A DNA stretch of 61,151 bases from Planctomycetota bacterium (GTDB lineage: Bacteria > Planctomycetota > Planctomycetia > Pirellulales > UBA1268). Positions 24,243-29,088 of this stretch are shown in pieces; the first letter of the stretch is position 1, and every line of letters begins with the position of its first letter. Position numbers and translations under genes: made by a program. Where the stretch lies: positions 1 to 61,151 of the forward strand of contig VGZO01000026.1 of assembly GCA_016872555.1 (NCBI GenBank), read 5' to 3'. The notes beneath the pieces were generated by a model. The model saw nothing but the letters and a program-made list of their open reading frames with translations, did not search any database and was not told where the DNA came from.

Positions 24243-25252
24243 TCAGCCGCGCCGGCGGCGCAGCCGGCGCTCGAACAAGCCAAGGGCGCCGGTGACCATT
24301 GCCAGCACGCCCGTCGCACTCGCCGGGTCGATCTCCGGCACGGTCGTCACCAGGGCGATCTGGTTGCCGCCGAGGTAGTTGTAGTCGATCGAATAACCGC
24401 TCGGCAGACCGTTGACCGCGGTGAACGTGCCACCGGCGAGCGACAGATACTTCGCGAACACCAGATCACCGACAGGCGCGTTTACCACGTTGAACGTCAC
24501 GCTCGACAAGGCGCCGAGAGTGAGCGTGTCCGACGAGCCGTCGAGGAGCCCGACCGAGGAACCGTCGACGTTCACCTTCAGGTCGCCCAGGAGCGAGAAC
24601 CCACCCGTGAACGTCGACGTGCCGGGGCTGTCGGCGAATCCCAACTCCACGACCGAGCCGACGGCGCCGGTCGCAGGGCCGATCACGGTGCCGGCGTCAC
24701 CGGCGAGTGTCTGACCGGCCGCGACTACGTAGCCGCCGGTGACTGCCGAGACGTCGAACGTGGCCGCCCCGAACAGCAGCGTCCCGCTCTGCGCGATGCT
24801 CGCCGACGGGCCGAGGGCCAGCGTGCCGCCGATCGACACGGTGGGACCGGTGTAGCTGTTCGATCCGGTGAAGGTCGTGTTGCTCTCAAAGTTGTAGACG
24901 AGGAGCGGTCCGCTCATCCGGTTGGGCACGTCGAGGTTGGCGGCACTGTGGGTGAACAACACCACGCCACCGCCGTCGGCAGTATTAGAGCCGAGGTTGC
25001 CGTTGATCGTGGCAGTGCTCTTGAGGAATCCGGGGGCGACGGGGTTGGTGCCCGTGCTCCCGATGAGCAGACTCCCGCCGCCGACCAGTTGCCCGCCGTG
25101 CCCCACGCGGCACTGGTAGCGCCAGTCCAGTAGGTGTCGGCCGCGTGGGCGACCGGTGCGAGAAAGAGAAGGAACGCGATAGCAACCGCACTCTCGCTTT
25201 TGCGCGCACGGCGGCCCGCACGGAAAAGACTGCTCGACGATCGACTGGACAT
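24243..25252 (-). pseudogene. VPEID-CTERM (PEP-CTERM-like) secreted surface protein with autotransporter-type repeats, frameshifted
   Basis: An AAGGAG site precedes ATG 25252. The first frame encodes a signal peptide (AVAIAFLLFLAPVAHA) and the start of the mature protein (ADTYWTGATSAAWGTAGNW), a common opening of planctomycete and autotransporter-associated repeat proteins. The continuation (LLIGSTGTNPVAPGF onward) is in another frame, so a single indel lies near 25060-25100. The second frame holds a TFTGSNSYTGPTV-type beta-strand repeat. It ends in VPEID (24327-24341), a hydrophobic helix (TGVLAMVTGALGLF) and ERRLRRRRG: the tripartite exosortase sorting signal. The cognate exosortase gene is the next one upstream. 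Whether the break is real or a sequence error is open. Confidence 0.8.
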
Positions 25253-26020
25253 CAGCGGCTCCTTGAAAAGAAACGATGAATTGGCAGGTGAATGGGGAAA
25301 CGGACACGAAAACGAATCGAAGACGGTGGGGCCTGAGGACGCGCGACGGGGCAACCCCGGCGCGCGGCACTCCGGCGGATCAGGGGGGCGGTCCCGCGGC
25401 GCGCGGCCGGGCACGACGCACCCCGGGTGGGCCGTGCGCGGTCGCCCCCGCTCGGGGCGACGACCCACGAGTTCGGCTGGTCCGGCGCGCAGACGCACCC
25501 TGTGTGGAGAACGACGGCGAGCGATCATCAAGGGCTCTTGGCATGGGGCATGACGCCGCCACTGCCAGCACCCGCGCACGCGTCCACGGCGCGCCCACTG
25601 CTGCCGCCAAACCTCCCTCTCGCGCGGCCGGAAGCCGGGATCACCACGTCCTGGCACCGTCGCCGCGCGTGCCTGCATGCCAGCCAATGCCAGGCTGGAG
25701 ACAGGCCACGGGAACGAACGCCGGTCGGGGATCGGGCAGGTCCGCCAGGGCGTTGCTCACGCAGGGAGCAACGAATCAGCGAACAACCGCTTCACGCCAC
25801 GAGGAGAAAGTCGCTTGGCAACGGCTAGCAGGCCGGAGCAAACGCTTGTGCGGGTGCTTGCAGGAGCGGTTCCAGAACTTCCCGAAATACCCGGCCCTGC
25901 AAAAACCGTGGCAGGTACGACGGGGGACCTGGAGATGTGACCAAAAGCCTTCGGAGCGCCAACCCCCTCCGTGGAACGATTCGCGTGCCGTTCCTTCCCG
26001 GGTTTTCACCGGCAGTCACG
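25253..26020. other. 768-bp stretch without a convincing gene
   Basis: No open frame here has family similarity or credible composition. The part next to 25252 would be the leader of the VPEID-CTERM gene. It contains a GC hairpin (25441-25461) and repeated GGCGCGCGGC strings around 25358 and 25397. The half from about 25780 to 26020 is visibly less GC-rich than its surroundings (aaaccgtggcaggtacg; tgtgaccaaaagcc), with no recognised element. It could hold a long 5' regulatory leader, a small RNA, or gene remnants. Confidence 0.6.
25441..25461. repeat. Perfect 8-bp-stem hairpin in the non-coding stretch
   Basis: GTCGCCCC (25441-25448) pairs with GGGGCGAC (25454-25461) across a 5-base loop. 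It lies about 190 bases upstream of the VPEID-CTERM start, so it may fold in that gene's leader RNA. Confidence 0.6.
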
Positions 26021-27694
26021 TCATCCCAGATCCCACGCGCCGGTGAACACCGCATAAAAGCCGAGCAACGCGTTGGTCGTGGCGTGGGCGACGATCGCGT
26101 CGACCAGTTTCCGCCTGTGGTAGAGAGCCGCGGCAAAGGCGACGCCCGCGAGCGTGGCCGGAAACCAGAGTTGCACCCCGTGGAACAATCCAAATGCCAG
26201 CGACGACCCCAGAAACGACACCCAGGTGAACGAGCCGATCGGCACCTGCTCGGCATCCTCGGACATCAGCCGCCGCGCGAGGAACCCGCGGAAAGCAAGC
26301 TCCTCGGCGATCGGGACCAGGATCATGTAGCCGATGAATCGCATCAACAGCCACGCCGATCCCCAGCCGAGCCCGAGCTGGGCCGGATCGAGGCTGGCGG
26401 CCGTCTCGGGATCGGATGGCGCAAGCAGCATCCACATCACGCACGTCAGCCCGCCGAGCGCGACCGCCACCGGCGATAGCGTCGCCTCCCGCCAGCGGAA
26501 CTCGTGCCGGAGGTTCCACAGGACGGCGGCGATCGCGATCACGCGGAGCGGATACCCCTTGCTCAGCGTGCCTTTCTCGGCGAACAGCTCGGTGAGGATC
26601 GTCGAAGCGAGCATCGCGAGGAACGGAAACAGGCAGGCGGCCACCGTCGGACCGTACGTCGGCGCCGTGGCCGACGCCGCTCGGACAGCCGCGGCTGTCG
26701 CCGCCGTCGAACCCGGAACCCCGCCCGTCGCGTGTTCGTCCTCGACCGGCAGCGTGAAAAACGGCATCCGCGATGCGGCGGCGATGATCCCCAGACCGAC
26801 GACGAGAAACGCCACCCAGCCGGCCTGCGAGTGGAAGCCGTCGACGGCGATCTCCGGTGAGATCCAGATACCGACGAGGATCAGGGCGGTGATCCGCACG
26901 ATATTCGACAGGAAGATCAAACCGATCCCGAGCGGAAACAGGAGGAACGACTGGGGAAACCGGTGGAGTCTCCTGAACCACCACAGATAGCCCGAGAACA
27001 GGAGGATGATCAGCCCGATCCCCTGGTAGCCGCTGCAGCCACCGTTCACCTTGACCGTGAAACCCTCGATGCCGATCGCCATCGGCTCGGGTCGAATGAC
27101 CGGGGCCCCGGCGAAAGGACCGAGGAGGAATTCGACCGCGTTGACGGTCGGACCGCCGGTCAGGTTCCAGAATGTGTCGGTGAACGAATCGGTAATCGCC
27201 ATCCCGACGGCAACCAAGGCGGCGGCCAACATGGCCCCCAAGACTGTCGACCGGACATCGACCCCGGCGGGCAGCAACAGGCGCCACGACGCGAGCCAAC
27301 CGAGCGTCAGCACCGTGATGAGAATCGCCGCGTTAAATTCGCCGATCAGCGGCCGAATTCCTCCGCCCCGCACGGTGATGAGAAAACCGAACAGCGCCAG
27401 GAACGCCGCTGCCTGACCGAGCAACCGGGGGATCGCGATTGCTGCGCTGCGGTACGCATCGCGGTGATTGCGAACGTGCGCTTGGAAGATGACCGCCGAC
27501 GCCAACCCGATGATCATCAGTTCCTTCCGGAGGAAACGTCGCCCGAACAAGACCTCGGAGGCAGAGAGGAACTGCTCACGGACCACCCGATCGAGCAGTG
27601 CCAGTTCCAGCGCCAGAAGTGCCAGGGCGATCACGCTGGCAGCCCAAGGGCGGTCGCGGAGCGACGGCTGGGCGAGCGGTGGCACGGACGACAT
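26021..27694 (-). CDS. Exosortase E / CPBP-family protease fusion (VPEID-CTERM system)
   Basis: 557 aa, many membrane helices. The first half is an exosortase: catalytic cysteine 220 in VNGGCSGYQGIG, arginine 267 in SNIVRI, and histidine 288 in DGFHSQAGW. The second half is a CAAX/CPBP protease: EE..R at 464-469 (AEELAFRGFL), histidine 505 in FGLFHG, and H537/N541 in AHATTNALLG. This two-domain architecture is that of exosortase E, which cleaves VPEID-CTERM tails and transfers the protein to an unknown surface acceptor. A protein with exactly such a tail is encoded just downstream on the same strand. The gene lies 58 bases after a glycosyltransferase gene. Confidence 0.9.
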   Translation of the reverse strand: MSSVPPLAQPSLRDRPWAASVIALALLALELALLDRVVREQFLSASEVLFGRRFLRKELMIIGLASAVIFQAHVRNHRDAYRSAAIAIPRLLGQAAAFLALFGFLITVRGGGIRPLIGEFNAAILITVLTLGWLASWRLLLPAGVDVRSTVLGAMLAAALVAVGMAITDSFTDTFWNLTGGPTVNAVEFLLGPFAGAPVIRPEPMAIGIEGFTVKVNGGCSGYQGIGLIILLFSGYLWWFRRLHRFPQSFLLFPLGIGLIFLSNIVRITALILVGIWISPEIAVDGFHSQAGWVAFLVVGLGIIAAASRMPFFTLPVEDEHATGGVPGSTAATAAAVRAASATAPTYGPTVAACLFPFLAMLASTILTELFAEKGTLSKGYPLRVIAIAAVLWNLRHEFRWREATLSPVAVALGGLTCVMWMLLAPSDPETAASLDPAQLGLGWGSAWLLMRFIGYMILVPIAEELAFRGFLARRLMSEDAEQVPIGSFTWVSFLGSSLAFGLFHGVQLWFPATLAGVAFAAALYHRRKLVDAIVAHATTNALLGFYAVFTGAWDLG

Positions 27695-27752
27695 GGGGCG
27701 CCCTCGATCTGGCTCCAGCGTCCAACGACAGAAGTGTCGCCGAAGCCAACCT

Positions 27753-29078
27753 TTACTCTAGCACCCGCGCTGCCGCGTTGCGGTACACCCGCTCGTGCCC
27801 GTCGGCCATCGCCGCTGGCGAATGGTGCGACCGCGCGTGGGCGTGGGCCGCGCGGCCCATCCGCGCCGCCAGCGCCGGATCGTCGGCGAGGAGCAGCAGC
27901 ACACTGTGGAGGTCGGCCACGTCGCCCGGGGCGTGGAGCAATCCGCGGGCGGTCGCCAGGTCGTCGCCGACATACTCGGGAAACGCCCCGTGTCGCGGCG
28001 CGACCACCGGCAGCCCGGCCGTGAACGCTTCCAGGACCGGGATCCCCTTGGCCTCGGGATGGACCGTCGGCATCGCGAACAGATCGACCTCCGCCAGCAG
28101 CGCGAGCTTTCCAGCCCGGTCCACCTGCCCGCGCCATTCGAACCGGTCGGCGATGCCCAGCGCCGCCGCCCGGCGCCGGCAGTCGTCGAGGTAGGGCTTC
28201 TCGGCCGCGATCGTCGCCCCGGCGGCGACGAGGCGCACGTCGTGCGTCGCGGAGAGGATCGCCACCGCCTCGATGAGGACCATGAGCCCCTTCTCAGGGC
28301 AGGCACGGGCGAGGTACCCGACGCGTAGCGCCCCACCGGCGCGCCGGGCGACCAGGTCGGGGGGCTCGGGCGGATACCCGTCCGGATCGACGCCATGGGG
28401 GACGACCGTGATCCGCTCTCTCGGCACGGCCAAGGCGTCGGCCATGAAGTCGGCGTAGAAGCGATTGAGGGCCACGAAGGCGTCGACCTCGGGGGCACGC
28501 AGCCGCAGCAACTCCCAGACGCGCGTGCGGTGCGGCTCGGGAAGCTGGTCGATGAAGATGTCCTCCCCGGAGAGGCTGCAGATGACCGCCGCGCCGGTGG
28601 CGGCACGGACCCGCCGCGCGACGCCGAGGAGGAGGACGTTGGAGAGGTGGACCACGTCGGGCCGCCCGCCGGTCACCGAGCCGGCGGCGAGCAGCGCGGC
28701 GAGCCGCTCGACCTCCTTGCGCTGGTGCCCTTGCTCGCCCTCCAGCGACGAGACCGTCAGGCCCCCGAGGTCGGCGGCCTTGGTCGCACCGGTGCGTCCC
28801 GACAGCCAGGCCAGCAACCGCCGCGAGTCGAACAGCCGGTCGACGAGCGCCGGCGTGTGCCGGAACAGGGGAACGTGCTCCTGGAGCCAGACGTTGACGC
28901 CCCCCATCACGATCGTCGGCGCGGCGACGTTCTCCTCGTCGGTCGTCGTCGGCACGTAGGCCGGGAGCAGGACGGCGTCGCGACCGCGCTGCCGCAGCGC
29001 CCGGACCAGCGCGTTGTCGTGGAGGCAGGAGCCGCAGATCCTCCCTCCGGCGCCGGCGGTGACGTGAACGATCTTCAT
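27753..29078 (-). CDS. Glycosyltransferase family 4 protein
   Basis: 441 aa, GT-B fold. The N-terminal GGRICGSCLHDNALVRAL and the C-terminal half with LRVGYLARACPEKGL (near 250) and an E..G.P..EA-type site (EAKGIPVLEAFTAGLPVVAP) are typical of retaining GT4 enzymes. The acceptor is unknown. ATG 29078 follows a GGGTGGGG site; a GTG two codons upstream is an alternative. It sits between mnmG (10-base gap) and the exosortase gene, so a role in making the exosortase acceptor glycan is conceivable but unproven. Confidence 0.87.
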   Translation of the reverse strand: MKIVHVTAGAGGRICGSCLHDNALVRALRQRGRDAVLLPAYVPTTTDEENVAAPTIVMGGVNVWLQEHVPLFRHTPALVDRLFDSRRLLAWLSGRTGATKAADLGGLTVSSLEGEQGHQRKEVERLAALLAAGSVTGGRPDVVHLSNVLLLGVARRVRAATGAAVICSLSGEDIFIDQLPEPHRTRVWELLRLRAPEVDAFVALNRFYADFMADALAVPRERITVVPHGVDPDGYPPEPPDLVARRAGGALRVGYLARACPEKGLMVLIEAVAILSATHDVRLVAAGATIAAEKPYLDDCRRRAAALGIADRFEWRGQVDRAGKLALLAEVDLFAMPTVHPEAKGIPVLEAFTAGLPVVAPRHGAFPEYVGDDLATARGLLHAPGDVADLHSVLLLLADDPALAARMGRAAHAHARSHHSPAAMADGHERVYRNAAARVLE

Positions 29079-29088
29079 CCCCACCCTT

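Follow-up and report, generated by a model that had tools for sequence, protein, structure and literature searches.

A probable many-to-one exosortase E/VPEID sorting system in a planctomycete genus and a 20-nt leader motif that may control its substrates together

Results

Organization of the xrtE locus

The window, i.e. the whole 61,151-nt stretch of DNA that was analysed, carries on its reverse strand a gene for an exosortase E/CPBP protease fusion (xrtE), preceded by a GT4 glycosyltransferase gene and followed by a disrupted gene with a VPEID sorting tail (Table 1). The initial annotation had proposed an exosortase E/CPBP fusion from a probable planctomycete. The congeners of the window's genome are indeed planctomycete MAGs, and the fusion was confirmed by the profile search suggested at that time, with XrtE scoring 197.6 bits against the NCBIfam model TIGR04162 (exosortase E/protease; curated cut-off, 150 bits) and matching the Pfam domains PF02517 and PF09721 at 2e-16 and 2e-7, respectively. 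The C-terminal CPBP half also reaches 123.5 bits against TIGR03008 (cut-off, 81) and gives a weak match to Mrt_core. As had been read from the single sequence, the catalytic residues are in place: C220, R267 and H288 are invariant in all 18 aligned XrtE proteins from the order, and E464, E465, R469, H505, H537 and N541 in all 17 that cover the CPBP half. The gene is an ordinary exosortase E/protease gene. A PDB sequence search returned no relative of XrtE, and an AlphaFold2 model built from three sequences was discarded at a pLDDT of 39. In the G027 relative, an in-frame TAG lies within XrtE (contig C195).

The GT4 gene beside xrtE is real, as shown by its profile match. The MnmG-GT4-XrtE order is conserved in the four congeners (split over two contigs in G002). 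Within the reach of their contigs, the other genera examined showed no GT4 gene adjoining XrtE. The adjacency of xrtE and the VPEID gene is likewise real and maintained in congeners.

Table 1. Coordinates of the features of the xrtE locus within the window
Feature	Position	Strand	Remarks
VPEID-helix-RR sorting tail	24243..24341	(-)	TIGR04161 17.6 bits, under cut-off
Remainder of the substrate (body and tail), other frame	24243..25085	(-)	frame switch near 25070-25110
Substrate N-terminal frame (signal peptide, beginning of mature protein; out of frame beyond)	24914..25252	(-)	
Putative structured 5' leader, 621 nt, up to the substrate start codon	25253..25873	(-)	
AGCGGTT, predicted to pair with the motif (type-2 leader)	25785..25791	(-)	folding z -1.24; complementarity p 0.17
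Invariant 20-nt leader motif GGAACCGCTCCTGCAAGCAC	25854..25873	(-)	between xrtE and substrate
xrtE, exosortase E/CPBP protease fusion, 557 aa	26021..27694	(-)	TIGR04162, PF02517, PF09721, invariant catalytic residues
xrtE CPBP protease half, aa 351-557 (E464, E465, R469, H505, H537, N541)	26021..26644	(-)	
xrtE exosortase half, aa 1-310 (C220, R267, H288)	26765..27694	(-)	aa 1-205 diverged or exchanged relative to sister species
GT4 glycosyltransferase, upstream of xrtE	27753..29084	(-)	next to xrtE in congeners only

The adjacent VPEID gene is disrupted as assembled

The neighbour of xrtE had been described as a secreted protein ending in VPEID; as assembled, it is not one intact protein. The tail-bearing ORF (24243-25370, 375 aa) ends in VPEIDPASATGVLAMVTGALGLFERRLRRRRG but does not itself encode a signal peptide. 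The signal peptide, MSSRSSSSLFRAGRRARKSESAVAIAFLLFLAPVAHA, begins at 25252 and is read in another frame than the body and the VPEID tail. The substrate gene of the sister genome G001 reads without interruption for at least 523 aa, starting with the signal peptide and running into the contig end; by BLAST, the window copy lacks about 1.06 kb of the interior of this gene. A second VPEID gene of the window's genome, on contig C27 (L106), is frameshifted as well. These frameshifts could be either genuine alleles or errors in the assembly of genes rich in repeats.

The sorting tail itself stands on direct reading, since the VPEID signature, the hydrophobic helix and the basic RR end are all present, but not by profile, since it scores 17.6 bits against TIGR04161 (18.1 in the genome search) for a curated cut-off of 33. 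A profile search of the window's genome yielded no tail above this cut-off. Signal-peptide-like starts were found in many VPEID proteins of the congeners. Some VPEID proteins, of 72 aa or in ORFs of 85-95 aa, consist of little beyond a signal peptide and a sorting tail (L069:5434-5649, L192, L075:7342, L079:9687 and L090:6855), and some of these lie beside XrtE.

XrtE is paired with many VPEID tails

Exosortases usually pair many-to-one with their substrates. The initial annotation had taken the locus for a compact system with one dedicated substrate and had suggested a search of the genome for other tails and exosortases. Both were found, and the single-substrate reading fails: the window's genome encodes at least seven further PEID tails, on contigs C8, C21, C22, C23, C25, C27 and C58, together with about 24 VPEP-type tails and, on C7, a second, EpsH-family exosortase, all of these counts being lower bounds from searches. 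A VPEIDP match at C22:481 was rejected as a tail. The EpsH-family exosortase (439 aa; L065:4241-7997) has XrtD as its best match, under the XrtD cut-off, and adjoins a chain-length/BY-kinase-like protein.

A similar picture emerges across the order, where TIGR04162 is present in 21 of 98 genomes. The mean number of VPEIDP patterns per genome is 12 with XrtE and 0.6 without it, and most XrtE genomes contain 3-36 of them. At least three patterns occur in 17 of the 21 genomes with XrtE versus 3 of the 77 without it, with a Fisher p of 1.3e-12 that overstates the evidence, since related genomes are not independent, although the pattern recurs in several genera. All three exceptions lacking XrtE belong to genus g8, in which most other members have XrtE, and are MAGs of 75-84% completeness. 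XrtE and VPEID tails therefore form a many-to-one pairing. The tagged proteins are scattered through the genome, and the system is not compact either.

Mosaic divergence of XrtE and the substrate between sister species

At the DNA level, identity between the window and G001 is 95-99% over 31500-28350 and 26850-25950. On the other hand, identity to G001 (L081) falls to about 50% over most of the N-terminal half of XrtE (27150-27750) and over much of the substrate (24300-25650), with a range of about 37-72%. The same break is visible in the protein, where aa 1-205 of XrtE are 43% identical to G001 and the CPBP half is 98% identical. The N-terminal half of the G000 enzyme shows 43% identity to G001 and 49% to G003, so that the sister species is not the nearer of the two. 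Such an arrangement looks like a recombinational exchange of the N-terminal half of XrtE, perhaps together with the substrate.

A 20-nt motif precedes many genes for secreted proteins

The motif located between xrtE and the substrate has the general form GGA(A/T)CCGCTCCTGCAAGCAC, position 4 being either A or T. With up to two mismatches allowed, it occurs at 10, 13, 11 and 8 sites in the four genomes of the genus (42 in total), and at 0-1 site in each of the other relatives, which is about the level of the reversed control. Scanning 84,980 species genomes, a set that may omit the window's own, for exact matches returned 22 stretches, 21 of them in three congener MAGs, where we estimate about one match by chance in the whole set.

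Gene ends could be read at about 27 of the 42 sites, 14 of the 42 being too near a contig end for the downstream gene to be read. In nearly all readable cases the downstream gene on the same strand encodes a signal peptide. VPEID, IPEID or VPEVD tails terminate 19 of these approximately 27 genes and LPEP or VPEP tails two more; a further five encode short tailless secreted proteins, of which four clearly form a family, and at one or two sites the gene is not clear or its tail is degenerate. The correspondence is partial in both directions: the motif stands before only some VPEID genes and also before a few genes of other kinds. The tailless family (L109:4733-5275, L193, L178 and L172) comprises secreted proteins of about 180 aa without a Pfam match, preceded by a motif leader with an ACTG variant. 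The leader-bearing VPEID protein L183:2396-3430 and its relatives contain an FGE-sulfatase domain (PF03781), and similar proteins also follow other leader copies.

The distance from the motif to the start codon is about 230-670 nt. Upstream, a TTGAC element lies 51-60 nt from the motif at 18 of the 42 sites, compared with 1.7% of shuffles, and at these TTGAC sites a -10-like hexamer is usually found 23-31 nt from the motif. With this spacing, the motif would lie close to the start of the mRNA. A good -35 is missing at the window's own site.

Other upstream elements were also considered. Samples from G026, G020 and G027 revealed no shared upstream motif by 12-mer counting, the only method applied to them. 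A hairpin upstream of several VPEID genes in G008 was rejected as an analogous leader, being a dispersed repeat of about 100 copies. Its core is GCGATGCCCGTCGACCGTGGA (e.g. L242 around 1075, reverse strand), and some copies are upstream of VPEID genes. Separately, a unit containing GCCCGTCGACCGTGG is repeated with a 102-bp spacing near contig ends in G000 (C9:23-145 and C52:24404-24628).

Predicted structures of type-1 and type-2 leaders

Twenty-two sites, referred to as type 1, have a common architecture of about 120 nt, a predicted three-way junction opened by the motif. It is composed of the helices P1 (CAAGCACC/GGUGCUUG), P2 (CCGUCG/CGACGG) and P3 (ACCGGC/GCCGGU), with a conserved joining stretch GCAAUCUGA and a variable hairpin capping P3. 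Single-sequence folding recovers the junction independently, and six of the eight leaders tested have z values at or below -2.65 (-2.65, -2.93, -3.24, -3.06, -3.86 and -3.12). The apical hairpin of P3 is formed in all 22 leaders despite widely differing sequences, with z negative throughout and a mean of about -2.8, in a set where several copies are near-identical and hence not independent. Covariation measures for the conserved type-1 helices did not exceed those of shuffles, as these helices vary too little.

In type-2 sites, the window's among them, the 20 nt of the motif are predicted to find different pairing partners downstream. Motif position 10 changes from A-U to C-G within a type-2 subgroup (four and three sequences), and several type-2 leaders fold strongly, with z from -4.8 to -5.0. 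The window's own leader is a weak folder (z -1.24). Type-1 and type-2 sites have entirely different flanks, and at about half of all sites the longest pairing of the motif is no longer than in shuffled sequence.

Pairing of the motif with the SD averages 1.9 versus 0.67 with shuffled motifs and is carried by about 7 of 22 leaders, which hints at a possible intramolecular anti-SD role. The variant TGGATCCGCTCCT, found in the window at 25854-25873, resembles the 3' end of 16S rRNA (TGGATCACCTCCT); this resemblance may be due to chance. The leader matches no family of Rfam 15, and the covariance model found no credible match outside the genus, a single outside match being marginal (E=0.007).

Discussion

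Relation to known sorting systems

The locus shares with the TIGR04162/TIGR04161 system an exosortase-CPBP fusion above cut-off, VPEID tails and genome-level co-occurrence of the two, but differs in tails that stay under the TIGR04161 cut-off, in the many substrates per genome and in a leader found in one genus. Its CPBP half resembles the CAAX prenyl protease-related proteins of TIGR03008, whose cut-off it exceeds, but is fused here to an exosortase. A CPBP intramembrane protease that acts on C-terminal sorting tags is known from the myxosortase MrtX/MYXO-CTERM system (Guo, Haft and Wall 2025, PMC11980579), and the weak Mrt_core match of XrtE fits this likeness; MrtX, however, is a stand-alone protein that needs conserved Cys residues in the tag, whereas the VPEID tail of the window has no Cys.

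For the regulatory part, the closest parallel is the XrtA/EpsH PEP-CTERM system with its PrsK/PrsR regulon. Proteobacterial PEP-CTERM genes share an upstream sigma-54 site, and further upstream motifs were stated as yet to be found (Haft 2006, PMC1569441). Both systems have scattered genes for sorted proteins, long upstream non-coding regions and a common cis element. The element of the XrtA/EpsH regulon contains a sigma-54 site and is limited to Proteobacteria, while here a TTGAC-type promoter element, seen at 18 of the 42 sites, is followed by a putatively structured element that is probably transcribed. In the non-subscription literature searched, we found no report of a leader RNA for PEP-CTERM or VPEID regulons, and no paper on VPEID.

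A proposed role for XrtE and the leader

We propose that proteins bearing a signal peptide at the N-terminus and a VPEID-helix-RR tail at the C-terminus would be exported and their tails recognized by XrtE. Judging from the family, the cysteine half would then cleave the tail and XrtE would probably join the new C-terminus to an acceptor, and the CPBP half, by analogy with myxosortase (PMC11980579), might make a second intramembrane cut in the substrate or in the released tail. The gene beside xrtE, here assembled in disrupted form, would encode one such substrate. In this genus, a common 5' mRNA leader would be present on many VPEID genes, on two or more VPEP-type genes and on one tailless secreted family, with the promoter followed by the 20-nt motif at about +20 of the transcript and then by 230-670 nt up to the start codon. 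The motif is predicted to base-pair into one of several structures, through which a trans-acting protein, RNA or ligand could affect translation, termination or mRNA stability.

The leader and its distribution are evident from these genomes, whereas its function is our inference. The most likely reading is that of a many-to-one XrtE sorting system in which the leader co-regulates surface-protein genes after transcription start. A bolder version, which we consider speculative and rather doubtful, would make the leader a new class of cis-regulatory RNA, riboswitch-like or recognized by a dedicated RNA-binding factor, for an entire exosortase regulon, with the recognition half of XrtE and the adjacent substrate exchanged together between species.

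Alternative explanations for the motif and the locus

A serious rival, though in our view on the unlikely side, is that the motif is a DNA operator just past the promoter, bound by a transcription factor, and that the folding of the RNA is incidental. An invariant contiguous sequence at a nearly fixed distance from TTGAC would suit such a site, as would the complete difference between type-1 and type-2 flanks, the lack of an exceptional pairing partner at about half of the sites and the weak formal covariation. The motif is not palindromic, however, and an operator would leave unexplained the architecture common to 22 sites over 120 nt, in which the joining stretch is conserved and the apical hairpin is retained while its sequence changes, as well as the compensatory A-U/C-G change in type-2 leaders.

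We regard it as improbable that the leader copies have no function and are shared only because a few secreted-protein genes were recently duplicated or underwent gene conversion. Some type-1 copies are near-identical over 135 nt (G003 C66, C77, C78 and C216), and the contig ends close behind many motif sites suggest repeats, but the 20 nt are invariant while the flanks cannot be aligned between types, and the downstream genes belong to unrelated families. Slightly less probable still is a dispersed repeat or recombination site for the exchange of surface-protein cassettes. The apparently exchanged XrtE half and substrate, the contig breaks after the motif and the dispersed hairpin repeat near VPEID genes in the genus of G008 would be in line with it; against this, the motif is present just 8-13 times per genome, almost always in sense orientation ahead of secreted genes and often at a fixed TTGAC distance. 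That XrtE serves the neighbouring VPEID protein alone is very unlikely: XrtE, the leader motif and a repeat-type secreted gene do stay adjacent in congeners, and VPEID tails adjoin XrtE in other families too (L075, L079 and L090), but the other PEID tails of this genome, the pattern counts of most XrtE genomes and the frameshift in the neighbouring gene all speak against it.

Significance

Collectively, these data correct the earlier view of the locus: the enzyme is of the E type, but the system is neither compact nor single-substrate. If the N-terminal half of XrtE was exchanged together with the substrate, the two sister species would provide a natural experiment on exosortase specificity. 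The new part of the many-to-one XrtE system is the 20-nt motif with its apparently structured leader, which stands before most of the tagged genes checked in the genus and may control them together. The leader thereby addresses the question of how dozens of scattered exosortase substrates are coordinated outside Proteobacteria and, as a compact element nearly confined to one genus, makes this question directly testable.
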